A stretch of 64,000 bases of DNA, taken from NCBI RefSeq assembly GCF_030815955.1, contig NZ_JAUSXK010000001.1, positions 2,046,001-2,110,000 of the forward strand. The letters are read 5' to 3'. Positions 13,254 through 52,340 of the stretch are shown here, piece by piece. Origin of the DNA: Microbacterium murale. GTDB taxonomy: Bacteria > Actinomycetota > Actinomycetes > Actinomycetales > Microbacteriaceae. Position 1 is the stretch's first letter. Each line of letters starts with the position of its first letter. The notes beneath the pieces were generated by a model. It saw nothing but the letters and a program-made list of their open reading frames with translations. It ran no database searches and was not told where the DNA came from. Both the position numbers and the translations under genes were made by a program.

Positions 13254-13344
13254 CCCGAGCACAACCTCGCAGATGTGCACGAACGTCGCAGCAATACCGC
13301 GAATTCCTGCGAGCGAAGTGCACTTCTGCGAGCGAAGCGCTCGT
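13254..13344. repeat. 91-bp intergenic element A: 19-bp units, two inverted then two direct
   Basis: Units at 13307-13325 and 13326-13344 both begin CTGCGAGCGAAG. Units at 13254-13272 and 13273-13291 both end TCGCAG in the opposite sense. The central 15 bases (13292-13306) contain GCGAATTC. It fills most of the 207-bp spacer upstream of rnhA; the rest (13345-13425) holds a weaker GTGCCCCA/TGGGGGCAC inverted repeat and no gene. Confidence 0.7.
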
Positions 13345-13425
13345 CGGTTCGCGTGCCCCAGCGTTGCCGGCGCTATGGGGAGGTTCGTCGGGTTGGGGGC
13401 ACGGCCGGAGTCGATCGAGTGACCA

Positions 13426-13641
13426 TCACGACTCGGGCTCGCCGTCGGTCTGCTCGGCGGGCTCCTCCAGAACGGGTGCGACGGGCAACACGATCGAGGT
13501 GGTCTGCGCACCCATCCCGACCTCGAGCGGATCGACGGTCGCTGCGCCCTCGAGCCTGTCGACGGCATCCTGATCCAGCGGCTCACCCGGCAGCGAGGCC
13601 CAGGGGCCCGGGTCGTCGGGTTTCTGCGTGAAAAGTCCCAT
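13426..13641 (-). CDS. Small hypothetical protein (71 aa)
   Basis: Sequence starts MGLFTQKPDDPGPWASLPGEP and is acidic and Pro-rich, without membrane helix or recognisable domain. The central VDPLEVGMGAQTTSIVLPVAP has the look of a conserved strand pattern. It begins 7 bases after the stop of the upstream VOC gene on the same strand and is probably its operon partner. I do not recognise a function. Confidence 0.6.
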   Translation of the reverse strand: MGLFTQKPDDPGPWASLPGEPLDQDAVDRLEGAATVDPLEVGMGAQTTSIVLPVAPVLEEPAEQTDGEPES

Positions 13642-13648
13642 GTGATCC

Positions 13649-14551
13649 TCAGAAGTCGGCGATGATGAGCTTCTTCATCCCCATCATCTTCTCGTATGCA
13701 CCCGGACGTTCCATGAGTTCGCCCATGTTCTCCGGAACGATCTGCCAGCTCAGCCCGTACCGGTCGGCGAGCCAGCCGCAGACCTCGGCCTCTGGCGAAG
13801 CCGTCAGTGCGTTCCAGTACCGGTCGAGCTCTTCCTGATCGGCGACGCGCACCTCGAGCGAGACCCCGCAGGTGAAGGTCACGTCCTGTTCGACGGCGGA
13901 ATCCATCATCGAGAACCATTGTCCGGCAAGGCGGAACTCGCCGAACATCACGCTGCCGGCGTCTGCGGGTCCTGTCTTCTCGGGATACTCCGCGATGAAT
14001 CCGACCTCGGACGCCGGGAACAGCGACGAATAGAACGTCGCGGCTTCGCGTGCCTGGTTCTGCACCGGGCCGCAGAACATCAGCTGCGGGATCAGGAACG
14101 GCCGCGGATCTCCTTCGGGGTTAGCGAGCAGCAGCTGCCAGTTGACGCCGTAACGATCCTGCACCCAGCCGTAGCAGGGGCTGAACGGATACTCGCCGAG
14201 CTCCATCCGCACGATGCCCCCGTCGGCGAGCTTCGCCCAGGTCTCGTCGAGCCGGGCACGCGCGGCATCACGATCGCCGTCGAACCGCAGCGGATCGAAG
14301 TTCAGCATGAACGACACGGACGCATTCGGGCGGAACTCATCGCCGGCGTTGATGAGCGTGAGCTCATAGCCGTCGATGACGAGGTCGACGGTGAGCGGTG
14401 TGCCCGCGAAGTCGGACTGCCAGTCCGGCACCTCGTCGGGATACCGTGCGCCGACGGTCGCCGTGGCTCCGGGGAAGGCATCGGTGTAGAACGCGCCGGC
14501 CTCATCGGCGTTCCGATCGAACCAGATGTTGGGGATGATCTTCTGCGACAT
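13649..14551 (-). CDS. VOC-superfamily protein, duplicated PhnB-like domains
   Basis: 300 residues from the ATG at 14551, which has AAAGGAG six bases upstream; the frame stays open to 14611 but lacks a site there. Two glyoxalase/PhnB-like halves are visible: KIIPNIWFDRNADEAGAFYTDAFPGA with DGYELTLINAGDEF, and LIPQLMFCGPVQNQAREAATFYSSLFPASEVGF with FRLAGQWFSMMDS. Both halves have the PCYGWVQDRYGVNWQ / VCGWLADRYGLSWQI signature of the 3-demethylubiquinone-9-methyltransferase-like PhnB group. The metal site of true dioxygenases is not evident, so an enzymatic role is uncertain. Confidence 0.82.
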   Translation of the reverse strand: MSQKIIPNIWFDRNADEAGAFYTDAFPGATATVGARYPDEVPDWQSDFAGTPLTVDLVIDGYELTLINAGDEFRPNASVSFMLNFDPLRFDGDRDAARARLDETWAKLADGGIVRMELGEYPFSPCYGWVQDRYGVNWQLLLANPEGDPRPFLIPQLMFCGPVQNQAREAATFYSSLFPASEVGFIAEYPEKTGPADAGSVMFGEFRLAGQWFSMMDSAVEQDVTFTCGVSLEVRVADQEELDRYWNALTASPEAEVCGWLADRYGLSWQIVPENMGELMERPGAYEKMMGMKKLIIADF

Positions 14552-14741
14552 GACAGCTCCTTTGCTGCGGACGGTTCGCTGATCTGATTCGGCATGCGTG
14601 ATCCGCCTCATCGATTACAGAGTGCGCCGCCGATGCCCTCGAAACAAGGGGCTTCTCGTGGGCAGGCGCACTTGTCTAGGGTGTAATGATGCCTGATCTC
14701 TTCGGCCAGACTCTCGAGTCGGCCAGAATGCTCCCGTCGGT

Positions 14742-15791
14742 GTGACCATGGACTGGGCCCTGTGGGTGGAGACGATCGTGGCCCTGCTCATCGCGATCGC
14801 GATCGTGGCGGCGATCGTCATCGGCGTGAGGTTCGTGGCAGGTCGCGCCCGGGGGCGCTCCGCGTGGATCGGGGACCTTGAGCGCCGCATCCGAGTGCCG
14901 GGGATGATTCTGGCATTCCTGATAGCGGTGTGGATCACGTGCGCGGTCACCGCTCCGGCGACCCTGTCGTGGTGGCCGGTGCTGCAGCGGGTTCTGCTGA
15001 TCGCCGTGGTACTCGTGGGCGCATGGCTGCTGTCGACGGCCGTCACCTTCGGCATGGAGCGGCTCATGCAGTACGACAGCCGACGAGACTCCACCAGCCC
15101 TGAGGCGCGACGACGTCAGACGCAGCTCACCATTCTGAACCGTCTTGTCGTCGTCCTGATCTCGATCATCGCGATCGGAGCGGTGCTGTTCTCGTTCCCC
15201 GAGGTCAGGGCAGTGGGCACCAGCATCCTTGCCTCCGCGGGGGTCGTCAGCATCATCGCCGGTCTCGCCGCGCAGTCGACGCTCGGCAACCTCATCGCCG
15301 GCGTGCAGATCGCCTTCACCGATGCGATCCGCGTCGGCGACGTCGTTGTCATCGAGGGGGAGTGGGGGCATGTCGGCGAGATCAACCTGTCGTATGTGGT
15401 CGTCTACATCTGGGACGAACGCCGACTGATCCTGCCGTGCACGTACTTCACGTCGAAGCCCGTCGAGAGCTGGACGCGGCGGTCGGACAAGATCCTCGGC
15501 ACAGTGTTCATGGATCTCGATTGGCGAGTGCCGGTGGATGCTGTGCGCGAGAAGTTCATGGAGATCATCGAGGCGTCGGATGCATGGGACAGACGCTCCG
15601 CGAACGTGCTGGTGACCGGTTCAGAGGGTGGTCACGTCACGCTGCGATTCAAGATCTCCGCAGCGAACTCGGACGATCAGTGGGAGCTGCGCTGTCTGGT
15701 GCGCGAGAAGATCATGACCTGGCTTCAGCAGGAGCATCCGGAGGCGCTGCCGGTCACCCGGGTGACGCTGGAGGAACGCCCCGACCGCTGA
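14742..15791 (+). CDS. Mechanosensitive ion channel, MscS family
   Basis: 349 residues with about four membrane segments (IVALLIAIAIVAAIVIGVRF, MILAFLIAVWITCAV, VLLIAVVLVGAWLLSTAV, LVVVLISIIAIGAVLFSF), followed by the pore helix ASAGVVSIIAGLAAQSTLGNLIAGVQIAFTDAIRVGD. That is the MscS TM3 signature leading into the beta domain (VVIEGEWGHVGEINLSYVV). The C-terminal domain ends WLQQEHPEALPVTRVTLEE. It acts in the membrane as an osmotic release valve. GTG at 14742 or ATG at 14748 are both possible starts; neither has a strong ribosome site. Confidence 0.9.
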   Translation: MTMDWALWVETIVALLIAIAIVAAIVIGVRFVAGRARGRSAWIGDLERRIRVPGMILAFLIAVWITCAVTAPATLSWWPVLQRVLLIAVVLVGAWLLSTAVTFGMERLMQYDSRRDSTSPEARRRQTQLTILNRLVVVLISIIAIGAVLFSFPEVRAVGTSILASAGVVSIIAGLAAQSTLGNLIAGVQIAFTDAIRVGDVVVIEGEWGHVGEINLSYVVVYIWDERRLILPCTYFTSKPVESWTRRSDKILGTVFMDLDWRVPVDAVREKFMEIIEASDAWDRRSANVLVTGSEGGHVTLRFKISAANSDDQWELRCLVREKIMTWLQQEHPEALPVTRVTLEERPDR

Positions 15792-15806
15792 CGACTGTGC
15801 CGGGGC

Positions 15807-16136
15807 TCAAGAAGTCGAGGACGCACGCACCGCGTCGACGAGTTGTCGCCACGGGCCATCGAGCGCCGACTCCGGCAGCTCTCGCTCGAGCCGCGCCGCT
15901 GGAGTGCGGGCCTGGATGCGCCAGATATAGCGATCCGCCTCTCGCTCTGGGGTGCCCGCCGGATCGTCCCAGGGGCAGCTGTCGATCAGCTCGATCCAGC
16001 GCGGCTCATCGTCGTGCTGCGGCACGACATGCCAGCGTCGACGGATGCCGGCAAGACCACCTGTTCGGATCACGGCGATGACGAAGCCGGGCTCCTCGTC
16101 CGGATCACTCGGTGGGGCTACGTCGCGCATCCTCAT
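15807..16136 (-). CDS. Emfourin-type protealysin inhibitor
   Basis: About 110 residues from the ATG at 16136 (or 16130), overlapping the 3' end of the M4 protease gene. The sequence FVIAVIRTGGLAGIRRRWHV followed by WIELIDSCPWDD and RYIWRIQA matches the emfourin family, small cytoplasmic inhibitors found beside protealysin-type proteases. The frame upstream of 16136 lies wholly inside the protease gene and is unlikely to be used. The overlap implies translational coupling, giving inhibitor together with enzyme. Confidence 0.8.
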   Translation of the reverse strand: MRMRDVAPPSDPDEEPGFVIAVIRTGGLAGIRRRWHVVPQHDDEPRWIELIDSCPWDDPAGTPEREADRYIWRIQARTPAARLERELPESALDGPWRQLVDAVRASSTS

Positions 16137-17187
16137 AGACTCCCACGGTGGTCCACGCGGCGCGAGTGGCTGTGGCGACTTCGTCGTCGACGGCTGCGGC
16201 GATCGTGGCATCCGCGAATTCACGGAAATTGGCCGTGCTCGCCAGCCCGCCGGTCAGGGCGCGGTACCAGGTGAGGCCGGCGCGTTCCCAGGCATTGCCG
16301 CCGAGCGTGGTCGCAGTGAGGGCGAACGCACGGTTCGGGATGCCGGAGTTGATGTGCACGCCGCCGTTGTCTTCTGTCGTCTGCACGAAGTCGCGCATGT
16401 GCGCCGGCTGCGGGTCTTTACCGAGCTCATCGTCGTCGTAGGCCGTGCCTGGTTCGAGCATCGACCGCAGTGCTCTGCCCTGCACCTCGTCGGTGAAGAT
16501 GCCGGCGCCGATCAGCCAGCTCGCCCGGTCGGAGGTCTGCCCCTCGCTGTACTGCTCGGTGAGAGCGCCGAACACATCGGCGATCGACTCGTTCAGCGCG
16601 CCGGGCTGGCCTTGGTACTCGAGGTTCGCCGTGTGCTGGATCACGCCGTGCGCGAGCTCGTGCCCGATGACCGTGATCGACCCGGTGAAGCCGCGGAACA
16701 CCTCGCCGTCGCCGTCTCCGAAGACCATGCGCTCGCCGTCCCAGAAGGCGTTGTCGTAGTCGACGCCATAGTGCACCGTCGCATCCAGAGCCGCACCCGC
16801 CCCGTCGAGGGAATTGCGGTCGTACGCACCCAGCAGCAGCTCGAATGTCGCGCCGAGCCCATCGAACGCCTCATTCACAGAGACATCATCCGCAGCCGGA
16901 TCGTCTTCCGCACGTACCACGGCACCCGGCAGCGTCTCGGTGTTCTGCGCATCACTGATCGTGCGGTTCGGGGCATCCGACAGCTCGGCGACGAGATCGC
17001 CCTGCTCGTCGATGGACAGATTGATGCGGGTGCGGAACGTCGGACGACCGGCGAGCAGGGTCTGGCGCGCAGCATCCGCAGCCCGGGGGAAGCGCCCGGA
17101 CTCGGCCAGGCGGGCGAGGAGATATGCCGGGATGATGCCGTATGCGCTGTCGTTCATATCGGCGACGATACGCCGGGGCGGAGACAC
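16105..17187 (-). CDS. M4 (thermolysin-like) metalloprotease, protealysin type
   Basis: 360 residues from GTG 17187, which has GGAGGAG nine bases upstream; the frame runs open to 17361 but without such a site. No signal peptide. A short N-terminal propeptide carries YGIIPAYLLARLAE, comparable with the protealysin propeptide motif. The catalytic domain has VIGHELAHGVIQ (HEXXH zinc site), NESIADVFGAL (third ligand Glu) and GGVHINSGIPNRAF (catalytic His region). Protealysins act as intracellular or non-classically exported proteases. It is paired with an overlapping emfourin-type inhibitor. Confidence 0.9.
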   Translation of the reverse strand: MSPPRRIVADMNDSAYGIIPAYLLARLAESGRFPRAADAARQTLLAGRPTFRTRINLSIDEQGDLVAELSDAPNRTISDAQNTETLPGAVVRAEDDPAADDVSVNEAFDGLGATFELLLGAYDRNSLDGAGAALDATVHYGVDYDNAFWDGERMVFGDGDGEVFRGFTGSITVIGHELAHGVIQHTANLEYQGQPGALNESIADVFGALTEQYSEGQTSDRASWLIGAGIFTDEVQGRALRSMLEPGTAYDDDELGKDPQPAHMRDFVQTTEDNGGVHINSGIPNRAFALTATTLGGNAWERAGLTWYRALTGGLASTANFREFADATIAAAVDDEVATATRAAWTTVGVYEDARRSPTE

Positions 17188-17263
17188 TGTCGTGAACTCC
17201 TCCTGTACTTCACGTCTGAGTCTGCGGCGGGATCTCCCAGCCCGCTCGCGTAAAATCAGCCCA

Positions 17264-18781
17264 ATGACCGATGCGCCCGCTGTTGATACCTCCGACTTCG
17301 GCGACGGCCTCGACCCGGCAGACCTCGAGACCACGCTGCGGGTTCTCGCCTCGATGGACAAGATCAGCGAAGAGCATCCGGACTACGTCGCCGTCCGACG
17401 CGCGACCGCGGCGATGTTCAAGGCGGTCAAGCGCGTACGCCGCAAGGAGATCCGCGACGCCATCGCCGAGGCCGACAAGGCGGTCGTCGCGAACACGGCG
17501 ACCGGTGCCCCCGATCGCATCGACGACGAGACGCGCGGCAACGACCTGAAGACGACGGTGGATGCTCCGATCGCGGGCGAGCTGCTCAAGCCGCGCAACT
17601 GCTACATCTGCAAGCAGCCGTACACGGTGGTCGACGCGTTCTACCACCAGCTCTGCCCCGACTGCGCGCGCTTCAGCCATGGCAAGCGCAACGCCCGCAC
17701 CGACCTGACCGGCAAGCGCGCACTGCTCACCGGCGGTCGCGCGAAGATCGGCATGCACATCGCGCTGCGGCTGCTGCGTGACGGAGCGCACACGACCATC
17801 ACGACGCGTTTCCCTCGCGACGCCGTGCGTCGATTCTCGTCTCTGCCGGACTCGGCCGACTGGCTGCACCGGCTGCGCGTCGTCGGCATCGACCTGCGCG
17901 ACCCTGCGCAGGTGATCGCGCTCGCCGATTCGGTCGCGGCCCAGGGCCCGCTCGACATCCTCATCAACAACGCCGCGCAGACCGTCAGGCGCTCGCCGGG
18001 TGCATATTCTCTGCTGGCGGATGCCGAGATGCAGCCGTTGCCGGACGGTCCATTGCCCGAGATGGAGACGTTCGGACACACGGTCGACCCGCATCCGCAG
18101 GCGCTGCAGGCATCCGTCGACTCCAACCCGCTGCTGTCCGTGGCCGCCCTCGGCGGCACCGTCGCCGAACAGGGCGGACAGGCGCTCACGGCCGAAGACC
18201 TCGCCAGGCTCGCGATGGCGCCTGGGTCGTCGTCGCTGGAGAAGCACGCCGACGGCAGCGCGATCGACGCCGGCGGCCTCGTGCCGGACATCAACCGCGT
18301 CAACAGCTGGGTGCAGTCGGTCGAGCAGGTCGACCCGCTCGAGATGCTCGAGGTGCAGCTGGCGAACACCACGGCGCCGTTCCTGCTGATCAGCAGACTG
18401 CGGGCGTCGATGGCCGCGTCAGACGCGCACCGCAAGTACGTCGTGAACGTCTCGGCCATGGAAGGCCAGTTCTCGCGCCGCTACAAGGGGCCGGGGCACC
18501 CGCACACCAACATGGCCAAGGCCGCGCTGAACATGCTCACGCGCACCAGCGCGGGCGAGATGCTCGAGACCGACGGCATCCTGATGACCGCCGTCGACAC
18601 CGGCTGGATAACCGACGAGCGCCCGCACCACACCAAGGTGCGCCTGGCCGAGGAGGGGTTCCACGCTCCGCTCGACCTCGTCGACGGTGCCGCGCGCGTG
18701 TACGACCCGATCGTGCAGGGCGAGGCCGGCGTCAACGTGCACGGGGTGTTCCTGAAGGACTACAAGCCGAACCCCTGGTGA
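17264..18781 (+). CDS. Atypical SDR oxidoreductase with N-terminal zinc-finger region
   Basis: 505 residues from ATG 17264; a TAAAAT box lies 8 bp upstream. Residues 1-130 are a charged helical region ending in two Cys pairs, CYIC and CPDC, a likely zinc site. From about 145 a Rossmann fold follows: RALLTGGRAKIGMHIALRLLRDG, DLRDP, ILINNAAQ and VVNVSAMEGQF. The usual SDR catalytic YxxxK is replaced: the Lys in TNMAKAALN has Thr four residues before it, so the tyrosine is missing, while Asn and Ser are kept. A roughly 100-residue insertion separates NNAA from the active site. Substrate unknown; it may not be a classical dehydrogenase. Confidence 0.8.
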   Translation: MTDAPAVDTSDFGDGLDPADLETTLRVLASMDKISEEHPDYVAVRRATAAMFKAVKRVRRKEIRDAIAEADKAVVANTATGAPDRIDDETRGNDLKTTVDAPIAGELLKPRNCYICKQPYTVVDAFYHQLCPDCARFSHGKRNARTDLTGKRALLTGGRAKIGMHIALRLLRDGAHTTITTRFPRDAVRRFSSLPDSADWLHRLRVVGIDLRDPAQVIALADSVAAQGPLDILINNAAQTVRRSPGAYSLLADAEMQPLPDGPLPEMETFGHTVDPHPQALQASVDSNPLLSVAALGGTVAEQGGQALTAEDLARLAMAPGSSSLEKHADGSAIDAGGLVPDINRVNSWVQSVEQVDPLEMLEVQLANTTAPFLLISRLRASMAASDAHRKYVVNVSAMEGQFSRRYKGPGHPHTNMAKAALNMLTRTSAGEMLETDGILMTAVDTGWITDERPHHTKVRLAEEGFHAPLDLVDGAARVYDPIVQGEAGVNVHGVFLKDYKPNPW

Positions 18782-18807
18782 GCACTGGGCGGCGCGTGCC
18801 AGGTTCG

Positions 18808-18898
18808 GTGCGCACACTTGCAGGGCCGCTGCACACCTGCAGGGGCGGGCTGCGGCGTGTCGCCCTGCATCCGTTCATTCGCCCTGCATCTGTGCATG
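18808..18898. repeat. 91-bp intergenic element B: 19-bp units, two direct then two inverted
   Basis: Units 18808-18826 and 18827-18845 share GCACAC(T/C)TGCAGGG. Units 18861-18879 and 18880-18898 both start CGCCCTGCAT, the reverse complement of the same core. The gap is 15 bases. It occupies the spacer between the convergent SDR and HxlR genes, where it could also act as a bidirectional terminator. Confidence 0.7.
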
Positions 18899-18923
18899 CA
18901 GCCGCGCGTTCGCGGACGCGAAC

Positions 18924-19262
18924 TCAGTGCGCAGGGACCTCGAGGTTCGCAGACGCCCACTGACCGAGCTGGCTGAGAATCGGCAGCAGCCCCTTGCCGC
19001 TCTCGGTCAACGCGTATGAGACCGTGACCGGCGGGCCGGCGTCGACGGTGCGGGCGACGAGCCCCGCCTGAGCGAGTTCGGCGAGGCGGTCGGAGAGCAC
19101 GGTGTCGCTGATGCCGACGACCGCGCGACGCAGTGCGACGAAAGTGGCAGGGCCGCCACCGAGCGATGAAACGATCATTCCGTTCCAGCGCTTTCCGAGC
19201 ACGCTGAAGGCCAGTGTGACAGCGGCGTCACACACGTGGATCGCCGTTTCAGCCTCGGCCAT
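18924..19262 (-). CDS. HxlR-family (MarR-like) transcriptional regulator
   Basis: 112 residues with a single HxlR winged helix: early Cys11 (HVCDAAVTLAFSVLGKRWNGMIVSSL), then the recognition region FVALRRAVVGISDTVLSDRLAELAQAGLVAR and the wing with PVTVSYALTESGKGLLPIL. HxlR proteins next to divergent azoreductase or quinone reductase genes (for example YodB, HypR) commonly sense electrophiles or disulfide stress through the N-terminal Cys. It probably controls the divergent gene at 19338. Confidence 0.88.
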   Translation of the reverse strand: MAEAETAIHVCDAAVTLAFSVLGKRWNGMIVSSLGGGPATFVALRRAVVGISDTVLSDRLAELAQAGLVARTVDAGPPVTVSYALTESGKGLLPILSQLGQWASANLEVPAH

Positions 19263-19292
19263 GCATCCATCCTACATGTGCTACGTTAACGC

Positions 19293-19319
19293 GAGTCGCT
19301 AATAAAAACAGAGCGACTC
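19293..19319. promoter_or_regulatory. Candidate HxlR operator, GAGTCGCT-N11-AGCGACTC
   Basis: A perfect 8-bp inverted repeat lies in the 75-bp divergent spacer, 19 bases before the azoreductase start. The AT-rich centre (AATAAAAACAG) could hold a promoter element. Likely target of the neighbouring HxlR protein. Confidence 0.55.
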
Positions 19320-19337
19320 CGAAAACGAAAGGTCACT

Positions 19338-19994
19338 ATGTCCCTGTTCCGCCTGGATGCCAGCATCCTGCCTGCCACATCCGCCAGCCGCTCGCTCGCC
19401 GATCTCGTGGAGGCCGAGTGGACGGCATCCCATCCCGACTCGATCGTGACCCGACGCGACCTCGCGGCCGACCCGGTTCCCGCGACGGTCTGGGCGGATG
19501 CCGTCACGTCGAAGTTCGTCGCAGAGGACCAGCGCAGCGAGCAGCAGAACTCCGCACGAGCTCTCGCCGCCGCGTTCGCCGACGAGCTGATCAGTGCCGA
19601 CGCACTGCTGTTCGCGGTGCCGCTGTACAACTACGGCGTCTCGCAGCACTTCAAGACGTGGTTCGACCTGGCGTACACCGACCCCCGCATCGACCCGGAG
19701 GGCACCGCGCTGAACGGCAAGCCGGCGACGCTCGTCACCGTGCTCGGCGGCAACTACGCCCCGGGAACGCCCAAGGAGGGCTGGGATCACTCCACCGGCT
19801 GGCTGCGTCGCGTGCTCGAGGACGTCTGGGGCCTCGACCTGCGCGTCGTGCAGCGTCCGTTCACGCTCGTCGGAGTCAACCCGGCGATGGATGCGTTCAA
19901 GGATGTCGCGAGCGAGCTCAAGGACGAGGCCGAGAAGTCGGCACGGGTCTACGGCCAGGAGCTCGCTGCGACACGCGGCACCAAGGTCGCCTGA
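19338..19994 (+). CDS. FMN-dependent NADH azoreductase / quinone reductase
   Basis: 218 residues with a flavodoxin-like fold of the AzoR type: SLFRLDASILPATSASRSLADLVEAEW (FMN phosphate loop), SADALLFAVPLYNYGVSQHFKTWFD (flavin-binding P-x-Y-N-Y) and GGNYAPG. It would reduce azo compounds or quinones with two electrons and protects against electrophiles. Divergent from the HxlR regulator, which is the usual partner for this class. Confidence 0.88.
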   Translation: MSLFRLDASILPATSASRSLADLVEAEWTASHPDSIVTRRDLAADPVPATVWADAVTSKFVAEDQRSEQQNSARALAAAFADELISADALLFAVPLYNYGVSQHFKTWFDLAYTDPRIDPEGTALNGKPATLVTVLGGNYAPGTPKEGWDHSTGWLRRVLEDVWGLDLRVVQRPFTLVGVNPAMDAFKDVASELKDEAEKSARVYGQELAATRGTKVA

Positions 19995-20015
19995 CCGGGG
20001 CGCTTCCGCACCCCC

Positions 20016-20100
20016 CGACACTCTGGGGGTCGAGAACACGGATGTCGGACGATCTTGGCTGATCCGTCCGACATCCGTGTGATGGGCCCCCAAACTGTCG
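20016..20100. terminator. Long imperfect hairpin (36-nt arms) between convergent genes
   Basis: Left arm 20016-20051 pairs with right arm 20065-20100 around a short loop. The inner 16 bases (ACACGGATGTCGGACG) and the outer CGACA and TGGGGG blocks match. The overall size (about 85-91 bp, centre near 20058) resembles the 91-bp elements, but internal 19-bp repetition is not clear. It lies between azoreductase (+) and histidine kinase (-) genes. Confidence 0.6.
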
Positions 20101-41448: not shown

Positions 41449-41463
41449 ACGAGGTGAGGGCGA

Positions 41464-44771: not shown

Positions 44772-45811
44772 TGCTTGTGCAGACGAAGGGGCCGGCCGCG
44801 ATCATGGCCGGACGCCGTGCACGCCATCGTCGTCATGCCGTGGCCACGATCGTGCTCGGAGTGGTGCTTTTCGCGCTCGCCGCCGTCGCCCTGATGTTCG
44901 GCAACTCGTTCTACACCCCCGGCGAGATCATCCGCGTCATGCTGGGCGAGACCGTGCCAGGAGCATCCTTCACGGTCGGGGAGTTGCGCCTGCCGCGCAC
45001 CGCGCTCGCGATACTCGCCGGGTTCGCCTTCGGCATCGCCGGAGTCACGTTCCAGACGCTGCTGCGCAACCCACTGGCCTCGCCCGACATCATCGGCATC
45101 ACCGAGGGGGCGAGCGCTGCCGCGGTCGTCGGCATCGTCGTGCTCGGTCTGAGCGGTCCTGCCGTCTCGGGGATGGCGTTGGGCGGAGCCCTGATCACAG
45201 CGATCGCGATCTACCTGCTCTCGAACAAGGGCGGCTTCTCCGGCATCCGCCTGATCCTGATCGGCATCGGAGTCGCTGCGATGCTGCAGAGCGTCGTGTC
45301 GTACGTGCTTTCGCGCGCGGCGGACTGGGACATCCAGATGGCGATGCGCTGGATCACCGGCAGTCTGAACAACGCCGCGTGGGACGACGTCATCCCGCTC
45401 GCGATCGCCAGCGTCGTGATCCTGCCGTTCCTGTTCAGCCAGGCACGAGCGCTCGGGATGCTGCAGCTCGGCGACGACTCGGCCTCCGGCCTCGGCGTGC
45501 GCGTCACGGCAACGCGGCTGATGTTCATCCTCGGTGCCGTCGCGTTGCTCGCGTTCGCGACGGCGGGCACCGGCCCGATCGCGTTCGTCGCATTCATGGC
45601 CGGACCCATCGCCGCCCGCATCACCGGCCCCGGCGCGAACCTGCTGCTGCCGTCGGCGTTCGTCGGGGCTGTTCTCGTGCTCGGCGGCGACCTGATCGGT
45701 CAGTTCGCGTTCGACGCGCGCTATCCGGTCGGCGTCATCACGGGCGTGCTCGGCGCGCCGTATCTGATCTACCTGCTCATCCGCACCAACCGTTCTGGGG
45801 GCTCGCTATGA
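44768..45811 (+). CDS. Siderophore ABC permease (system 2, FepG-like)
   Basis: 347 residues, FecCD family: LRLPRTALAILAGFAFGIAGVTFQTLLRNPLASPDIIGITEGASAAAVVG, LGDDSASGLGVRVTATRL, AGTGPIAFVAFMAGPIAARITGPG and YPVGVITGVLGAPYLIYLLIRTN. Starts with GTG-ATG overlapping the previous stop, so either codon may initiate. Its stop overlaps the ATPase ATG. Confidence 0.93.
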   Translation: MMLVQTKGPAAIMAGRRARHRRHAVATIVLGVVLFALAAVALMFGNSFYTPGEIIRVMLGETVPGASFTVGELRLPRTALAILAGFAFGIAGVTFQTLLRNPLASPDIIGITEGASAAAVVGIVVLGLSGPAVSGMALGGALITAIAIYLLSNKGGFSGIRLILIGIGVAAMLQSVVSYVLSRAADWDIQMAMRWITGSLNNAAWDDVIPLAIASVVILPFLFSQARALGMLQLGDDSASGLGVRVTATRLMFILGAVALLAFATAGTGPIAFVAFMAGPIAARITGPGANLLLPSAFVGAVLVLGGDLIGQFAFDARYPVGVITGVLGAPYLIYLLIRTNRSGGSL

Positions 45812-46608
45812 CCGAGGCGCACACACTGACTGCCGAGGCAGTGACCCTCGCCTACGGCGACCGCACGGTCATCGAAGGCCTCGACCTCCAGGTCGCGCCG
45901 GGGAAGATCACCTCGATCGTCGGAGCGAACGGATGCGGCAAGTCGACGCTGCTTCGCTCGCTCGCGCGGCTGCTGTCGCCGGCCTCCGGCCAGATCGTCC
46001 TGGATGGCAAATCCGTGCATTCGCGGCCCACCAAGGAGGTCGCCCGCGTGCTCGGCCTGCTGCCGCAGTCGCCGATCGCGCCGGAGGGGATCGCAGTGGC
46101 AGACCTGGTCGGGCGAGGACGGCATCCGCATCAGAAGGTGCTCGCCCGCTGGACCTCCCACGACTACGAGATCGTCGCCGACGCGCTCGAGGCGACTGGC
46201 ATCACAGATCTCGCCGACCGCAGCGTCGACGAGCTCTCCGGTGGTCAGCGCCAGCGAGTGTGGATCGCCATGGCGCTCGCGCAGGAGACCGACATCCTGC
46301 TGCTCGACGAGCCGACCACGTTCCTCGATGTCGCGCATCAGGTCGAGGTGCTCGATCTGCTCACCGATCTCAGCGTCTCGCGCGGCACGACCATCGTCAT
46401 GGTGCTGCACGACCTCAACCTCGCCGCGCGCTACTCCGATGAGCTCGTCGCGATGCGCAGCGGTCAGGTGCACGCCCTCGGAGCGCCGGACGACATCCTC
46501 ACTCACACGCTGGTCGAAGAGGTCTTCGGCATGGCGAACCAGATCACCACCGACCCGGTTTCGGGAAAGCCGATGGTGACACCGATCGGAAGGCATCATG
46601 TCCGCTGA
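45808..46608 (+). CDS. Siderophore ABC transporter ATPase (system 2, FepC-like)
   Basis: 266 residues. Walker A GANGCGKSTLL, LGLLPQSPIAPEGIAVADLV, signature LSGGQRQRVWIAMALAQ, Walker B ILLLDEPTTFLD, VLHDLNLAARYSDE. Very similar in its core to the system 1 ATPase, suggesting a shared origin of the two cassettes. ATGA overlap with the permease; its own end overlaps the SIP gene by 11 bases. Confidence 0.95.
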   Translation: MTEAHTLTAEAVTLAYGDRTVIEGLDLQVAPGKITSIVGANGCGKSTLLRSLARLLSPASGQIVLDGKSVHSRPTKEVARVLGLLPQSPIAPEGIAVADLVGRGRHPHQKVLARWTSHDYEIVADALEATGITDLADRSVDELSGGQRQRVWIAMALAQETDILLLDEPTTFLDVAHQVEVLDLLTDLSVSRGTTIVMVLHDLNLAARYSDELVAMRSGQVHALGAPDDILTHTLVEEVFGMANQITTDPVSGKPMVTPIGRHHVR

Positions 46609-47539
46609 GACTCGCACTCGCACTCCCTACGTCCTCGCTCGCGCCGAGGTGCGCGCGGTCGACCGCGTGTCGCCGAACTTCGTGCGCGTCACCTTCGGGG
46701 GCATCGACCTCGACGAGTTCGGTACTCCCGGCGACGTCTACGACGCCCGGATCAAGCTGGTCTTCCCGCCGGCCTCCGGCATCCTCCCCGACCTCGACCG
46801 AGACACCGACGACTGGTGGGGCTCGTATCTCGCGGTTCCCGAGGAGGAACGCGGATCGATGCGCACCTATTCGGTGCGCTCTCTCGACGTCGCGGATGCC
46901 GGCACCGAGGTCGTCGTCGACTTCGTGCTGCACCTCGCGCCGGGTCTCACCGGACCCGCTTCTCTGTGGGCGAGCGCGGCCTCCGTTGGCGATGAGCTCT
47001 GGATGGTCGGGCCGCGCCGCGGACGTGAGGACCGCAGCGGCATCGAGTACGCGCCAGGTTCTGCGTCGTCGGTGATGCTGGTCGGCGACGAGACCGCTGC
47101 GCCCGCGATCGCCCGCATCCTGGAGGATGCCCCGCGTGATCTGCGTGGGCTCGCATTCATCGAGATTCCGACGGCTGAGGACATCCTGCCGATCGATGCT
47201 CCGGAGGGTGTGGAGGTGCACTGGCTGCCGCGCGGTGATGCGGCGCACGGACTGCGGCTGATCCCCACGGTGCTCGACTGCCTCGGCGACACAGGGCATA
47301 GCGAGATCGTCGTGCAGGATGCCGAGGGCGAAGAGATGGTCTGGGAGACTCCGATCTACTCCGGCAGCGGCGAAGAGGTCTCCGCTTCAGAGGACGGCAC
47401 CGACCGGTACTTCTGGATCGCCGGCGAGAGCGGCGTCGTCACGACGCTGCGTCGGCACCTGGTGAAGGACCTCGGCATCGACCGCTCGCAGGTGGCGTTC
47501 ATGGGGTACTGGCGCCGCGGCGTCGCGATGCGCGGCTGA
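46598..47539 (+). CDS. Siderophore-interacting protein (ferric-siderophore reductase, system 2)
   Basis: 313 residues, normal SIP length. FAD-binding part: RAEVRAVDRVSPNFVRVTFGGIDLDEFG and SMRTYSVRSLDVADAGTEVVVDFVLH (RxYS flavin motif). NAD(P)H part: VMLVGDETAAPAIARIL, YFWIAGESGVVTTLRRHL and the canonical ending VAFMGYWRRG. It reduces the imported ferric siderophore in the cytoplasm to free Fe(II). Last gene of the system 2 operon, translationally overlapped with the ATPase. Confidence 0.93.
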   Translation: MSAETRTRTPYVLARAEVRAVDRVSPNFVRVTFGGIDLDEFGTPGDVYDARIKLVFPPASGILPDLDRDTDDWWGSYLAVPEEERGSMRTYSVRSLDVADAGTEVVVDFVLHLAPGLTGPASLWASAASVGDELWMVGPRRGREDRSGIEYAPGSASSVMLVGDETAAPAIARILEDAPRDLRGLAFIEIPTAEDILPIDAPEGVEVHWLPRGDAAHGLRLIPTVLDCLGDTGHSEIVVQDAEGEEMVWETPIYSGSGEEVSASEDGTDRYFWIAGESGVVTTLRRHLVKDLGIDRSQVAFMGYWRRGVAMRG

Positions 47540-47554
47540 GATCTTCGCCGTCCA

Positions 47555-47645
47555 CGCGTCCCGATCTGCGGACATTGTCCCGATTAGCTGAGGTATTCGG
47601 CGCAAATGTCAGCTGATCGGGACCGCGTCCGCGAATCGGGACACG
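47555..47645. repeat. 91-bp intergenic element C: GTCCCGAT words at 19-bp spacing
   Basis: GTCCCGAT at 47558 and 47577 (19 apart) face ATCGGGAC at 47616 and 47635 (19 apart), symmetric around 47600. The longer arms CAGCT(A/G)ATCGGGAC...GTCCGC..ATCGGGAC also match. The centre contains TTCGGCGCAAAT. It sits between two same-strand genes, so it is not simply a convergent terminator. Confidence 0.75.
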
Positions 47646-47698
47646 GGTCGAGGCGTGAGGTGACGAGCCCTGTCCCACCTGCGTGGTTCGATGGAGGC

Positions 47699-48754
47699 AT
47701 GAACCAGGAGCAGCGGATGCAACAGGAATCCCGTGCCATCTGGGCCACCGTCATCTGCTTCCTGGCCGGCACCGGCATCGGTACGGCAGTGCTGTGGGGA
47801 AATCCGCGACCGATCGCCGGAGACGGATCGGTCAGCCTGCCGGTAGCCCTCGTCGCGGGTGTCGTCGCCGCGGCATCCTTCGTCGTCAGCACGTTCCTGA
47901 ATCGCAGAGGCGAGCATGCGTCGATGCCGAGGTGGCAGACGATCATCTCCGCATCCTCGGCCGTCGCCCTCACGATCGCGTTCGCCGGCGTGACGGCGCT
48001 CGGTGTGCTGCTGGCGAGCGAGGTGCTCGGCGTGGGGTTGCAGGGCGTCGTGCTTCCGGCGCTGGGTGGCGGCATCGTCACCGGAGTCGCCAGCGCCGTC
48101 GCCGGCAGGCTGACCTTCGGCGCTGGAATCGGGCTGCACACCGCTGATCTCGCCGCGCTGCTGTTCAGTTACCTGATGATCGGCACGCTGTTCGCGATGC
48201 TCACCGCCGCAGACCCGCGGTGGTGGGAGACGAACTTCTCGCAGCTCGGCATCGGGGTCGGTGCCTGGGTTTTCAACGGCACCCTCGTCGTCGCCGGCAT
48301 CCTGACCGCCACGGTGGGCGCTTACATCGGTCGTGACCTGCACCGGATCCTCGGCGACGCCGCGCTGGGTCGCATCGTCTGGGTGGTCGTGCTGTGGACG
48401 GCCACCGGGGTCGCGCTCGCCGGAGTCGGGTTGTTCCCGCAGGAGGACATCGTCGTGCTGCACAACATCGCAGCCGTCTCGACGCTCGTGCTGTTCGTCG
48501 CGGCAGGTGTGCTCACGACCACGGTGATGCCAGGACCGCCACGGCCACTGCTGCTGACCACGGTGGGCGTCGCGCTGCTGCTCGTCATCGCGTTCGTGGG
48601 GGCCGACAGCCTCGACCTCTACTCGATCACCGTGCTCGAGGCGATCGTGATCGGACTCGGGCTGCTCTGGCTCACGACCCTGGTGCGCGTGCTCGCGGTG
48701 CTGACACCGGATGTTGCGCGTCCGTCGGCACGCGAGTCGCTGCTGCATGGGTGA
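47699..48754 (+). CDS. DUF998-like integral membrane protein
   Basis: 351 residues from ATG 47699 (ATGGAGGC just upstream; the frame back to 47606 crosses element C's edge). About ten hydrophobic helices. The second half, with NFSQLGIGVGAWVFNGTLVVAGILTATVGAYIGRDL, GVGLFPQEDIVVLHNIAAVSTLVLFVAAG and the preceding membrane pair, follows the DUF998 pattern of eukaryotic-like and actinobacterial membrane proteins. Function unknown. Confidence 0.75.
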   Translation: MNQEQRMQQESRAIWATVICFLAGTGIGTAVLWGNPRPIAGDGSVSLPVALVAGVVAAASFVVSTFLNRRGEHASMPRWQTIISASSAVALTIAFAGVTALGVLLASEVLGVGLQGVVLPALGGGIVTGVASAVAGRLTFGAGIGLHTADLAALLFSYLMIGTLFAMLTAADPRWWETNFSQLGIGVGAWVFNGTLVVAGILTATVGAYIGRDLHRILGDAALGRIVWVVVLWTATGVALAGVGLFPQEDIVVLHNIAAVSTLVLFVAAGVLTTTVMPGPPRPLLLTTVGVALLLVIAFVGADSLDLYSITVLEAIVIGLGLLWLTTLVRVLAVLTPDVARPSARESLLHG

Positions 48755-48766
48755 CGCGCGTCGCGA

Positions 48767-48821
48767 CCGGTCCCGTCGCACTTTTCCATTGTCGTGCGGT
48801 GTGTCGTGCGACGGGAACCGG
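48767..48821. terminator. 15-bp hairpin between convergent genes
   Basis: CCGGTCCCGTCGCAC (48767-48781) pairs with 48806-48821 with one bulged A. The loop includes a T-rich stretch and a repeated GTCGTGCG. It lies between the DUF998 gene and the convergent alcohol dehydrogenase gene. Confidence 0.6.
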
Positions 48822-48828
48822 CCGGTGC

Positions 48829-49917
48829 TCAGAGCGAGGTGATGACCACCCGGGTGATGTTCGAGTCCTTCAGTGACTCGTAGCCCTCGTTGACCTCGTC
48901 AAGAGCGATCTCCTTCGACAGCAGCGAATCCAGTTCGAATCGACCTTCGAGGTACAGCTTCGCGTACATGGGGATGTCGTGCTTCGCGGTCGTCGATCCC
49001 ATGTAGACGCCCTGGATGCGCTTCTGCGATCCGATCAGGCCGACCTGGTGCACGTCGATATGCGACGCGGGATCGATGACGCCGATCAAGTAGAGTCCGC
49101 CGCCGGGCGCGGCCATCTCGAGCCCCTGCTCTGCGACGGTCTTCGTGCCCACGAAGTCGAACACCGAATCCGCCCCGTTGCCGGTGATCTCCATCACGGC
49201 GGCCACAGGGTCGACGGACTTGGAGTTGACGACGTGGGTCGCGCCGAACTCGCGCGCCTTGAGGAGCTTGTCATCTGCGATGTCGACGGCGATGATCGTC
49301 GTCGCTCCAGCGATGACGGCGCCGTTGATCGCGTTGAGACCCACACCACCTGCGCCGATCACGACGATGGTGTCACCGGCCTGCACATTGGCAGTGTTCA
49401 GAACAGCCCCTGCGCCGGTGACGACGCCGCAGCCGAGCAGGGCGGCCTGAGCGAACGGGATCTCGTCCGGCACCTTCACGAGCTGGTTCTCGTGCACAAG
49501 CGCCTGCTGGGCGAATCCGCCCAGGCCGAAGGCCTGGCCGACAGGTAGGCCGTTCTCCGACAGCCGGGGTGCGTCACCCTCTGCGCGGAGCGTCTTCTCC
49601 GGGTGCAGGCACTGGTAGACCTTGCCCGACAGGCACTTCTCGCAGGCGCCGCAGTACTGCACGAGACATCCGACGACATGGTCGCCGACCGCGAGCTCCG
49701 TGACGCCGGGGCCGATCTGCGTGACGACGCCTGCGAGTTCATGCCCGAACACGCCGGGCAGCGGATTGCCCATCTCGAAACGCGACATGGTGAGGTCGGT
49801 GTGGCACAGGCCGGAGGCCTTCACGTCGACGAGTACCTCGCGGCCGATGGGATCCGCGATGTCGATGTCGGCGCTGACGAATCCTGCGCCGAGCTCGCGG
49901 ACGAGTGTTGCCTTCAT
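48829..49917 (-). CDS. Zinc-dependent alcohol dehydrogenase, class III-like
   Basis: 362 residues from ATG 49917, overlapping the TetR stop (ATGA). Catalytic zinc ligands C38 (SGLCHTDL), H59-E60 (FGHELAGVV) and C163 (LLGCGVVTG). Structural zinc site C89, C92, C95, C103. Rossmann fold VVIGAGGVGLNAINGAVIAGA with DIADDK, where the acidic residue favours NAD(H). The LGCGVVTGAGAVLNTANV stretch is typical of class III/NDMA-dependent and aryl-alcohol dehydrogenases. Encoded in an operon behind its probable repressor. Substrate unassigned. Confidence 0.9.
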   Translation of the reverse strand: MKATLVRELGAGFVSADIDIADPIGREVLVDVKASGLCHTDLTMSRFEMGNPLPGVFGHELAGVVTQIGPGVTELAVGDHVVGCLVQYCGACEKCLSGKVYQCLHPEKTLRAEGDAPRLSENGLPVGQAFGLGGFAQQALVHENQLVKVPDEIPFAQAALLGCGVVTGAGAVLNTANVQAGDTIVVIGAGGVGLNAINGAVIAGATTIIAVDIADDKLLKAREFGATHVVNSKSVDPVAAVMEITGNGADSVFDFVGTKTVAEQGLEMAAPGGGLYLIGVIDPASHIDVHQVGLIGSQKRIQGVYMGSTTAKHDIPMYAKLYLEGRFELDSLLSKEIALDEVNEGYESLKDSNITRVVITSL

Positions 49918-50582
49918 TTGTTCTCTCCTTCTGGGCGTTGTCCGTCGGGGTCTCCGGCGGGCACTGATGGGACGCTGATGTGCATCCATGCGGGCATGAG
50001 CTGGGTCAGATGATGCGCCAGCTCGTCCTGGGTGGCGGTCACATCACCGAGCACCCAATCGACGATGAGCCCGACCGCTGCGTGAGCGATGTACGTCGCA
50101 GCGATGGTGGGGTCGAGATCAGCCGGTGGGCGAGTGCCCTCGACGATGTGCGCGAGGATCTCGGTCCGCATGATCTCGACGACGCGTGATTCGGCGCCGC
50201 GCGGCGTCGCGATGGTGAAGACGCGAGCGTAGAGGCTGCGGTAGGTGCCGTAGTGCGCGATCAGGGCGCGCTGCGACTGCTCCATGAGTGAAGTGTCCAC
50301 GCGCGAAGATGCCGCACTCGTGTGCTGCGAGATCTCATGGAAAGTGAGCTCCTGCAGGTGCAGCGCGAGGTCGTCGATGCCCGAGAAGTGGGTGTAGAAG
50401 GTCGCGCGGCTGATGCCGGCGGCCTCCGCCACGCTCTTCACCGTTATCTCGGCGTCCGTCGTGGCCAGTGTGCGTACCGCCTCATACAGGCGGGATCTGG
50501 TGGCGGCGGGTCTTCTGTCCGTGGACGCGCGTATCGCGTCGCGGACGGATGCGAGATCCGCCGTCGCGTCTTCGCGAGTCAT
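49914..50582 (-). CDS. TetR-family regulator of the alcohol dehydrogenase operon
   Basis: 222 residues. DNA-binding domain at about 28-80: RSRLYEAVRTLATTDAEITVKSVAEAAGISRATFYTHFSGIDDLALHL. The C-terminal domain carries LMEQSQRALIAHYGTYRSLYARVFT and YIAHAAVGLIVDWVLGD, a TetR_C_33-like outline. It precedes adh with a 4-base overlap, so repressor and enzyme are made from one mRNA, controlled by the 36-bp palindrome 11 bases before its start. Confidence 0.9.
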   Translation of the reverse strand: MTREDATADLASVRDAIRASTDRRPAATRSRLYEAVRTLATTDAEITVKSVAEAAGISRATFYTHFSGIDDLALHLQELTFHEISQHTSAASSRVDTSLMEQSQRALIAHYGTYRSLYARVFTIATPRGAESRVVEIMRTEILAHIVEGTRPPADLDPTIAATYIAHAAVGLIVDWVLGDVTATQDELAHHLTQLMPAWMHISVPSVPAGDPDGQRPEGENK

Positions 50583-50593
50583 GATCTCATCCT

Positions 50594-50629
50594 ACGCCTG
50601 TTTCTGGACAAGTGTCTAGAAACAGGCGT
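50594..50629. promoter_or_regulatory. 36-bp near-perfect palindrome, TetR operator of the adh operon
   Basis: ACGCCTGTTTCT (50594-50605) and its exact complement (50618-50629) enclose GGACAAGTGTCT. 16 of 18 half-site positions are symmetric, and the inner GACA-AG-TGTC looks like a TetR core. It lies between tetR (leftward) and putP (rightward) and may touch both promoters. Confidence 0.75.
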
Positions 50630-50695
50630 GGCGCCCTGGCCATCGGTATCCGTCCCTGTCAGGATCGGGGGACCGACCTCCACGAAAGGACGACG

Positions 50696-52228
50696 ATGTC
50701 CGACCAGGTATTCATCTTCATCGCGCTGGGGCTGTACTTCGCAGCCATGCTCGTCATCGGCTACCTGGCGTTCCGCCGGACAGCCGACCACGAGGACTAC
50801 ATGCTCGGCGGCCGTGATCTTCCGCCTTGGGTCGCGGCGCTCAGCGCCGGAGCATCCGATATGTCCGGCTGGCTGGTGATGGGCTTGCCGGGAGCGATCT
50901 ATCTCTCCGGACTCATCGAAGCGTGGATCGCCGTCGGCCTCACGATCGGCGCGTACCTGAACTGGCTTCTCGTCGCCCCACGCCTGCGCGCGTACACGCA
51001 GGTGTCGCGCAACTCGATCACTGTGCCGAGCTTCTTCGAGAACCGACTGCGCGACTCCACGCGGCTGCTGCGCATCCTCGCCGGCGTCGTGATCCTGGTC
51101 TTCTTCACCCTGTACATCTCCAGCGGCATGGTCGCCGGTGGCTTCTTCTTCGAGACCTCCTTCAACTCCGACTATCTGCTCGGCATCGCATTGGTCGGGG
51201 GCGTCACCCTGCTGTACACCCTGTTCGGCGGGTTCCTCGGGGCATCGTTCACCGATGTCGTGCAGGGCCTGATGATGGTGATCGCGCTGATCGTCATTCC
51301 GGTCGCAGCCGTGATCGCCGTGGGCGGTTTCGGCGAGGTTGGCACGTACATCGACGAGCTCGCTCCGAACCACCTGTCTCTCATCGGAGGGACGGCGTTG
51401 ACCGGTGGGGTCGTGCTGACCATCGTCTCGGGTCTCGCATGGGGCCTCGGCTACTTCGGTCAGCCGCACATCATCGTGCGGTTCATGGCGCTGCGCAACC
51501 CAGGTGAGGCCAAGGCTGCCCGCCGCATCGGCATGACGTGGATGATCATCTCGCTCGTCGGTGCAGTGTTCTCGGGCCTCATCGGCATCGCGTACATGGC
51601 GCAGAAGGGCATCGACCTCACCAACCCCGAGACCGTCGTGCTGGTGATGTCGCAGACGCTGCTGCACCCGTTCGTCGCCGGGCTCGTGCTCGCTGCCGTG
51701 CTCGCTGCGATCATGAGCACGATCTCCAGCCAGCTCATCGTCGCGTCGTCCGCCCTCGTGGAAGACCTCTTCAAGGTCGTCAAGAAGGAGCCGTCGCCGA
51801 AGCTGCTGGTGCTGCTCGGGCGAATGACAGTGCTCGGTGTCGGCATCATCGCGGCGCTGCTGGCGCTGGTCCCGAACGACACGATCCTCGGGCTGGTCTC
51901 GTTCGCGTGGGCAGGCTTCGGCGCCGCCTTCGGCCCGCTGATCCTGCTCAGCCTGTTCTGGCGCAAGCTCACGAACTGGGGCGCGCTGGCCGGCATGTTC
52001 GTCGGGGCTGCCGGTGTCTTCGTGTTCAAAGCCGTCTGGCCTCAGATGTACGAGCTGCTGCCTGCTTTCGTCTTCGCGATGCTCGTGGCGGTGGTCGTGA
52101 GCCTGCTCACCCACCGCGACGGCTCCGAGCGGCAGAACGAGATCCTGCAGGAGTTCAGCGAGACCGGCACGCTGCTGACCGTGAACGGCGTCGGCCGCGG
52201 TGCGCGTATCGACCGCATGACGCCGTAG
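50696..52228 (+). CDS. putP: Sodium/proline symporter
   Basis: 510 residues from ATG 50696 (GAAAGGA upstream). SSS-family transporter with 13 helices: IGYLAFRRTADHEDYMLGGRDLPPWVAALSAGASDMSGWLVMGLPG (sodium-site and substrate region of PutP), LYTLFGGFLGASFTDVVQGLMM and GLAWGLGYFGQPHIIVRFMA. AAVLAAIMSTISSQLIVASSALVEDLFK carries the conserved TM9 Ser/Thr. Imports proline for nutrition or osmoprotection. No proline catabolic genes adjoin it. Confidence 0.93.
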   Translation: MSDQVFIFIALGLYFAAMLVIGYLAFRRTADHEDYMLGGRDLPPWVAALSAGASDMSGWLVMGLPGAIYLSGLIEAWIAVGLTIGAYLNWLLVAPRLRAYTQVSRNSITVPSFFENRLRDSTRLLRILAGVVILVFFTLYISSGMVAGGFFFETSFNSDYLLGIALVGGVTLLYTLFGGFLGASFTDVVQGLMMVIALIVIPVAAVIAVGGFGEVGTYIDELAPNHLSLIGGTALTGGVVLTIVSGLAWGLGYFGQPHIIVRFMALRNPGEAKAARRIGMTWMIISLVGAVFSGLIGIAYMAQKGIDLTNPETVVLVMSQTLLHPFVAGLVLAAVLAAIMSTISSQLIVASSALVEDLFKVVKKEPSPKLLVLLGRMTVLGVGIIAALLALVPNDTILGLVSFAWAGFGAAFGPLILLSLFWRKLTNWGALAGMFVGAAGVFVFKAVWPQMYELLPAFVFAMLVAVVVSLLTHRDGSERQNEILQEFSETGTLLTVNGVGRGARIDRMTP

Positions 52229-52230
52229 GG

Positions 52231-52340
52231 CGCGTCGACGCCGGCGGCCACGCGCGACTCTGGCGGCCGCGCGCGACTCCGGCGGCCACAACGTTGCGAA
52301 TTGGCCGCCAGAGTCGACGTGGGCCGTCAGGGTCGACGTC
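52231..52340. repeat. 91-bp intergenic element D plus one extra unit: GGCGGCC-type 19-bp repeats
   Basis: Direct units 52231-52249, 52250-52268 and 52269-52287 end in (T/C)GGCGGCC. After a 15-base gap (52288-52302, with GCGAATT) come inverted units 52303-52321 and 52322-52340 starting GGCC(G)(C/T)CAG. The symmetric 91-bp core is 52250-52340 centred on 52295. It lies between the convergent putP and hydrolase genes. Confidence 0.75.

Follow-up and report, generated by a model that had tools for sequence, protein, structure and literature searches.

Mirrored 19-bp elements with changing words near gene ends in Microbacterium murale and its relatives

The window analysed here, a stretch of 64,000 nucleotides (C1:2046001-2110000), belongs to the single-contig 4.11-Mb genome of Microbacterium murale (G000) and contains four copies of a short intergenic element, in which two units at a pitch of 19 bp face a mirrored pair across a short centre. 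An element takes up roughly 80 bp, and its short repeated core, here called the word, is present in four copies. The following four elements have been located, with a graded four-way score given for each.

Element 1, 13254..13344: word family CTGCGAG/TTCGCAG(A); 9-mer units 13266-13274 and 13285-13293, inverted units 13305-13313 and 13324-13332; score 43
Element 2, 18808..18898, between convergent genes: word family (GA)TGCAGGG; units 18819-18827 and 18838-18846, inverted units 18861-18869 and 18880-18888; score 47
Element 3, 47555..47645: word family GTCCCGATCTGCrnA; units 47558-47566 and 47577-47585, inverted units 47615-47623 and 47634-47642; score 50
Element 4, 52241..52340, between convergent genes: word GGCGGCC (GACTCTGGCGGCC); three left units 52241-52249, 52260-52268 and 52279-52287, inverted units 52303-52311 and 52322-52330; score 48

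A preliminary description of the window had given every element a length of 91 bp, a centre of about 15 bp and two units per arm. The mirrored 19-bp geometry at the four loci is real, while the centres between inner 9-mers are 11, 14, 29 and 15 bp, respectively, and the left arm of element 4 has three units.

Excess of the 19-bp phase

When the window was scanned for 8-mers repeated at a period p and again as mirrored reverse complements, with one mismatch allowed, four clusters were found at p = 19, exactly at the four loci, and 27 of the 29 other periods between 10 and 39 were empty (periods 11 and 17 gave one match each). The same scan of 800 kb of the genome outside the window gave 7 clusters at p = 19 and 0-3 at every other period. 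For the four-way score, with cut-offs of at least 44, 42, 41 or 38, the sample was 944 kb (the window and 44 stretches of 20 kb, about 23% of the genome), to which genome-level counts below also refer where so marked. At period 19 this sample has 14 elements scoring at least 44 and 19 scoring at least 42, against 0-3 and 0-10 at the other periods from 14 to 30 and against 0.1 and 0.6 in ten runs of an order-3 Markov simulation. Scores of 38-41 are largely noise, since 29 elements of at least 38 were observed and 17.1 were expected from simulation. The scan against controls proposed in the preliminary description has therefore given a clear excess, and chance or base composition is ruled out as the cause by the period scans and simulations.

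A second test picked gapless palindromes without regard to period (cut-off of at least 18 within the genus) and measured the self-match of their arms at each lag. Lag 19 gave 0.45 for 33 palindromes of G000 (other lags 0.24-0.32) and 0.43 for 22 palindromes across 29 orthologous loci of relatives (other lags 0.23-0.31). In single relatives with very few palindromes, the lag-19 value was 0.59 in G001 (3 palindromes), 0.46 in G005 (5) and 0.46 in G007 (5; lag 29 gave 0.43). There was no lag-19 peak in G022 (7 palindromes; 0.33, under lags 9, 12 and 16), though this genome has three 19-phased elements scoring at least 44. In 400 kb from 8 genomes outside this family but within the order, 28 palindromes of at least 16 gave no lag-19 excess (0.34 against 0.27-0.40), and an order-wide feature is rejected on this ground.

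Word families, centres and mirrored pairing

At least seven words, GAGACCCC, TGCAGGG, GGGAGGA, TTCGCAG, GAGACCGA, GTCCCGAT and GGCGGCC, occur in G000 together with weaker others. Elements with TGCAGGG match at 13 places, the window copy included, and the copies are only 71-87% identical to the window copy and have unlike flanks. The word of element 1 has 3 further places in the genome, and GGCGGCC has one weak match elsewhere. As a separate observation, 7 of the 13 TGCAGGG places fall between 1.86 and 2.27 Mb, a segment making up about 10% of the genome and possibly near the replication terminus.

The families extend to other species. In a congeneric panel (366 genomes for GAGACCCC, 365 for GTCCCGAT), the arm GAGACCCC-N11-GAGACCCC was found in 88 genomes, with up to 39 arms per genome, and its reversed control gave 4 matches in 3 genomes; the 19-phased arm GTCCCGAT-N11-GTCCCGAT was found in 21. 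In a family panel of 299 genomes from 85 genera, the 2+1 pattern of GGGAGGA was present in 9 genomes and 5 genera. Further words of relatives are TGTCGGGAG (G022), CCGwTCTGC (G001), AGCCGCCCC (G005), ATAAACGCG and TTTGGGGC (G007), and GAGAAACCAC (G222 and G086), and one word family also occurs in contigs of Amnibacterium sp. CER49 and Microbacterium galbinum. A single 8-kb stretch of M. galbinum carries a GGGAGGA and a TGCAGGG element of the same geometry (L193:2481-2553 and 7885-7953). The words had initially been thought specific to each locus; instead, they form dispersed families common to several species. One ordinary mobile repeat with a shared sequence, which had been named as the case that would overturn the description, is rejected because the families carry different words.

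The pitch is constant at 19 bp, and the centre is nearly constant within measured families and different between them. Among 41 in-register GAGACCCC combinations, 32 have 22 bp between the inner words, five have 11 or 12 bp, one has 21 bp, and three, in which a third unit is counted, have 40 or 41 bp. All seven 2+2 pairs listed for GTCCCGAT, including the window copy, have 31 bp between inner 8-mers. For GGGAGGA, 16 of the 19 matches listed have 17 bp and 3 have 18 bp, with a range of 12-26 bp allowed and several matches being the two strands of one element. Linkers of GAGACCCC are variable, with T favoured at position 5 and CG at positions 8-9, and the extended unit is roughly TnnCGyCGAGACCCCnnnn.

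Mirrored pairing was examined in 32 gap-free aligned GAGACCCC elements, using 500 shuffles and a slid-register control. It is kept in 81.1% of cells (74.7% when shuffled), cells with double changes number 141 (86.5 when shuffled; no shuffle reached 141), and the covariation score is 0.247, compared with 0.141 for shuffles, none of which reached it, and 0.072-0.089 in slid registers. Each of the centre columns 28-31 has 12-15 double changes, and linker columns 14-15 are mostly unpaired. For this alignment RNAalifold predicts two helices, an outer one of words and an inner one of word plus centre, separated by a symmetric internal loop. The covariation is a mirror symmetry, which would fit an RNA hairpin, a single-stranded DNA hairpin or quasi-palindrome correction equally well. 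In single RNA folds of eight elements, z ranged from -2.25 to -10.5; it was -5.5, -8.1 and -6.0 for elements 1, 3 and 4, respectively, and for element 2 the margin over shuffles is small (z = -2.25; 7 of 200 equally good).

Gene ends and the turnover of words

The genes adjoining the four elements, assigned by Pfam where a domain is named, are as follows.

12499..13218, minus strand: RNase H-domain gene, downstream of element 1
13426..13641, minus strand: small, weakly supported open reading frame without Pfam match, upstream of element 1
17264..18781, plus strand: gene with partial adh_short match, ending ahead of element 2
18924..19262, minus strand: HxlR-type regulator gene, converging on element 2
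46598..47539, plus strand: siderophore-interacting protein gene, ending ahead of element 3
47699..48754, plus strand: DUF998 gene, downstream of element 3
50696..52228, plus strand: sodium:solute symporter gene, converging on element 4
52350..53192, minus strand: alpha/beta hydrolase gene, converging on element 4

Elements are concentrated at gene ends. Genes in the 944 kb were predicted by our own gene caller (870 genes, 90% coding; not checked against annotation), and among their spacers of at least 70 bp an element scoring at least 42 occupies 7 of the 40 between convergent genes, 11 of the 200 between same-strand genes and none of the 116 between divergent genes. Elements of G000 scoring at least 41, taken together with family copies (n = 32), comprise 20 in same-strand positions (two inside predicted genes), 11 in convergent positions and 1 in a divergent position; the 41 GAGACCCC combinations across species comprise 20 convergent, 16 same-strand, 3 divergent and 2 unclassified. 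The nearest facing stop codon lies at a median of 15 bp (36 GAGACCCC combinations, by hand, a few rows being orthologues or three-unit duplicates). For four word patterns in the 944 kb, partnered words were all intergenic (19/19, 15/15, 6/6 and 2/2, the second a subset of the first), and intragenic words were unpartnered. Termination had been thought unlikely because some elements lie between same-strand genes, a view at odds with the placement of most elements close past stop codons and with the 116 divergent spacers, none of which has one scoring at least 42. Since the same-strand elements 1 and 3 both sit downstream of a stop, with element 3 beginning 16-19 bp past the stop codon at 47539, a 3'-end role is possible for both. 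Rfam gave no match at gathering score in 144 kb including all four elements, and a search for plasmid relatives of element 1 gave no match.

Words differ at orthologous sites. Past the hydrolase gene 52350-53192, 6 of 29 relatives have 19-phased elements with words other than GGCGGCC, and in the remaining relatives the place holds a simple hairpin or nothing, or the neighbouring gene is another one.

L144: TTCTGCGGCC; score 54
L150: GAGAnCAGG; score 50
L135: AGATCCGG; score 45
L134 and L143: GAAGGA; scores 41 and 40, weak
L132: CAGGAGGA; by eye only

Element 2 aligns with a spacer of G022, where units TGCATGA/TGCATTA stand in place of TGCAGGG and one of the four units fits neither word. Another site lies behind a conserved gene for a class II tRNA synthetase with a GAD domain, which is probably aspS (Pfam on the G222 copy); the element that G222 carries there was the reason for choosing it. 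The comparison covered 23 species, of which 20 were the 11 best-matching relatives in order (G086 and G300 passed over, G048 counted separately) and nine picked by hand, partly for known elements, and the other three included G048. Elements scoring at least 44, all 19-phased, were found in 15 of the 23, with six words; G143 is really 2+1. Among the 11 best-matching relatives, 6 scored at least 44, each with a different word. The following words were found at the probable aspS site.

GAGACCCC: G081, G128, G255, G044, G163, G284, G143 and G161 (in G161 the outer word is a variant)
GACACCCC in all four units: G223
GACACCCC in outer and GAGACCCC in inner units: G222 and G048
Other words: CCCCCTCTG (G091), CTCGGC (G350), GGTCGCAG (G186) and GCCCCTGCT (G202)
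Score below 44 (8 of 23): G336, G057, G329, G098, G130, G051, G014 and G022

Conservation of geometry without conservation of the word, as reported from the window, thus holds also at orthologous spacers. The question raised there of whether all four units change together has a divided answer at this site: GACACCCC fills four units in G223 and only the outer two in G222 and G048.

Half-changed elements are frequent in G222. When xx of CGAxxCCCC is recorded as outer/inner, its 22 distinct arms, with unlike linkers between loci, are CA/GA in 12, GA/GA in 8, CA/CA in 2 and GA/CA in none, and all 11 arms of G000 are GA/GA. In the same order as CA/GA, GA/GA, CA/CA and GA/CA, the small samples gave 1/3/1/0 in G086, 1/1/2/0 in G223 and 1/1/0/1 in G048.

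Words are constrained in the one species pair compared closely, G222 and G086, which are 97.6% identical over 170 kb. In four aligned elements (one further element was unpaired for register), none of the 144 word positions differs, compared with 8 of 80 in linkers and 4 of 56 in centres; calculated by hand, the probability of all 8 word-or-linker changes landing in linkers is about 2e-4. Ten GAGACCCC arms listed per genome correspond one-to-one by linker and order, with 7 differences in 110 linker positions (by hand; the words are fixed by the pattern, and some arms are shared with the four-element comparison). Compared with G086, G222 has one extra 19-bp unit (L202:9540-9650 versus L212:18130-18250), a recent gain or loss. 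In G215 (C1:50998-51062, L165), one arm has several tandem 19-bp units with identical linkers, likely a recent expansion. Copying of units within a locus does occur, as the unit difference between two species so similar shows.

Interpretation and alternatives

We read these sequences as modular, bidirectional 3'-end hairpin elements whose units are read by one or more factors, a tentative reading which we consider a real possibility but somewhat short of probable. Gene-end placement and mirrored pairing together argue for a hairpin role at 3' ends. Conserved words at many loci, faster linkers, a fixed pitch and a family-specific centre argue for a sequence-specific factor, and the early suggestion that spacing is read by a protein or a structure agrees with the constancy of pitch and centre, with word conservation and with the pairing of mirrored units. 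Transcription from either side across the two units, the nearly fixed-length centre and the mirrored pair would give a rod, consisting of an inner helix (word, centre and mirrored word), a symmetric linker loop and an outer word helix. Such an element may end or protect transcripts, or may separate convergent genes, while one or more candidate factors would read the word four times per element at a fixed pitch. If the specificity of the reader drifts, words would change, and a new word could spread among the units, and possibly from locus to locus, through 19-bp slippage and mirror-arm correction. Slipped units and half-changed elements display a route by which a new word can fill an element; the order of word changes is inferred.

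Several findings weigh against this reading. No reader has been found, and only Y1_Tnp was searched for. A scan of 47000-53000 called no U-tract terminator at element 3 or element 4, and element 1 is distant from its upstream stop (91 bp) yet 45 bp from the next start. With 19 elements scoring at least 42 per 944 kb, most genes are without one, and elements of at least 44 are few in sampled relatives (3 in G022, 1 in G001, 1 in G005 and 2 in G007; 0-1 at other periods). Arms of GTCCCGAT occur at one G000 locus only, which is odd for a dedicated reader. In the pairing analysis, where the aligned rows are related, two measures less hurt by relatedness gave smaller differences: pairs with double changes numbered 20 against 17.7 (33 of 500 shuffles reached this) and pair types 59 against 54.5 (34 of 500). 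The word columns of the G222-G086 comparison were those agreeing best within an element, so that it leans to conservation. The probable aspS site also has plain hairpins (G014 and G022; word CGAGACGAAACGC) or one mirrored pair (G336, G051 and G329), and in G048 one arm of three carries the variant in its inner unit alone.

A bolder form of the reading, which we consider rather unlikely, takes the elements as a genus- or family-wide gene-end class, in which a fixed scaffold carries an interchangeable address word, the word and fast-evolving, sequence-specific readers change together, and different readers serve the orthologous gene ends of sister species. If this is true, transcript-end or chromosome organisation would have a new layer that can be re-addressed.

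The strongest alternative, though an unlikely one, is a non-autonomous mobile repeat resembling the REPINs built from repetitive extragenic palindromic (REP) sequences, each word family being copied, now or once, by its own recombinase that recognises 2x19-bp mirrored ends, with insertions surviving at gene ends. The location bias is of a kind reported for REPs, and this bias, the dispersed families with common words, the several words per genome and the patchy species spread, with one pattern in only 5 of 85 sampled genera, would all be expected of a mobile repeat. PMC3116915 and PMC3733652 describe REPs and REPINs as short dispersed extragenic palindromes, with mirrored pairs predicted as hairpins and sequence classes differing by genome. 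The elements here are likewise dispersed, multi-copy, extragenic and palindromic, but they have two 19-bp-phased units per arm, a nearly fixed centre and word differences at orthologous sites. In the GAGACCCC family, GTAG is not among the invariant columns of 32 elements, and CGTC stands in the centre consensus, not at the end. The linked RAYT gene that had been suggested was not found: the Y1_Tnp domain (PF01797) is absent from G000, the one genome searched, with a control search positive in 5 of 14 named genomes, and a RAYT-driven REPIN is rejected on this ground. Against mobility in general, target-site duplication is not evident in 37 GAGACCCC combinations (best excess 2/37 against 0.3 expected over tested lengths and offsets), IMG/VR contains no GAGACCCC 2+1 pattern, G222 and G086 correspond one-to-one in the ten GAGACCCC arms listed for each, and TGCAGGG copies match the window copy only in part (71-87%) and not in their flanks.

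We regard as quite unlikely a concerted evolution without any reader, in which gene-end hairpins descend from a few ancestral 19-bp tandem palindromes, and slippage and quasi-palindrome correction hold pitch and pairing while the word drifts, the pitch being inherited and not measured. The unit gained or lost between near-identical G222 and G086, the identical tandem units of G215, the existence of half-changed elements and the agreement of four units although GTCCCGAT has one G000 locus all speak for such a process. However, the same word with unlike linkers at many loci, and words conserved while linkers change, need a constraint across loci; nearly fixed family-specific centre lengths are unpredicted, and outer-only variants recur at many G222 loci.

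A DNA-uptake-like signal with species dialects, whose mirrored pairs double as terminators, is very improbable. For DNA uptake sequences (DUS) of Neisseriaceae, PMC3630211 describes short words, dialects among relatives, mirrored pairs tied to terminators and a sequence-specific binding protein, ComP, and gives numbers of hundreds to thousands, often intragenic. The words here are also short, differ among relatives and stand in mirrored pairs, whereas partnered words are few and none lie in genes (944 kb, four patterns), several words share a genome, and we know of no DUS counterpart of the doubled 19-bp arms.

Other known systems are more distant. Intrinsic (Rho-independent) terminators are not known to require conserved words, fixed pitch or fixed centre; the elements resemble them in folding stably, mostly lying close past stops and being frequent between convergent genes, and differ in that elements 3 and 4 are without a U-tract call. 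Integron attC sites are gene-end palindromes recognised by shape rather than sequence; the elements here are also gene-end palindromes, but no attC-like core boxes were seen by eye in the GAGACCCC alignment, and they follow chromosomal genes including the probable tRNA-synthetase gene. The distinction from clustered regularly interspaced short palindromic repeats (CRISPR) drawn at the outset holds, since units here are mirrored with arms two or three units long, in contrast to same-direction repeats with unique spacers. The nearest analogues are REPINs and uptake-sequence dialects, and the elements lack part of the defining features of each. Among the titles and abstract openings listed from open-licence literature, none describes a mirrored architecture with 19-bp pitch. 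The interpretation offered in the preliminary description is kept for conserved geometry, changing word and unit copying, and given up for locus-own words and improbable termination.

Strict geometry with changing sequence at the same gene end, together with half-changed intermediates, allows the concerted evolution of a gene-end element to be followed stepwise in hundreds of related genomes. A reader, should there be one, would represent a new class of factor at the ends of bacterial genes; otherwise, the elements are a clean natural example of slippage and mirror-arm correction keeping geometry and rewriting sequence.

Two minor observations concern related arrangements. In G007 (L130:10570-10780), a longer tandem array of CTCCGGCG/TTTGGGG 19-bp units exceeds the 2+2 form. 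The word CGAGACGAAACGC marks another dispersed family of gene-end hairpins, which has no 19-bp doubling and was seen at L141 and L151 of the 29-relative panel, L305 in G014 and L307 in G022.

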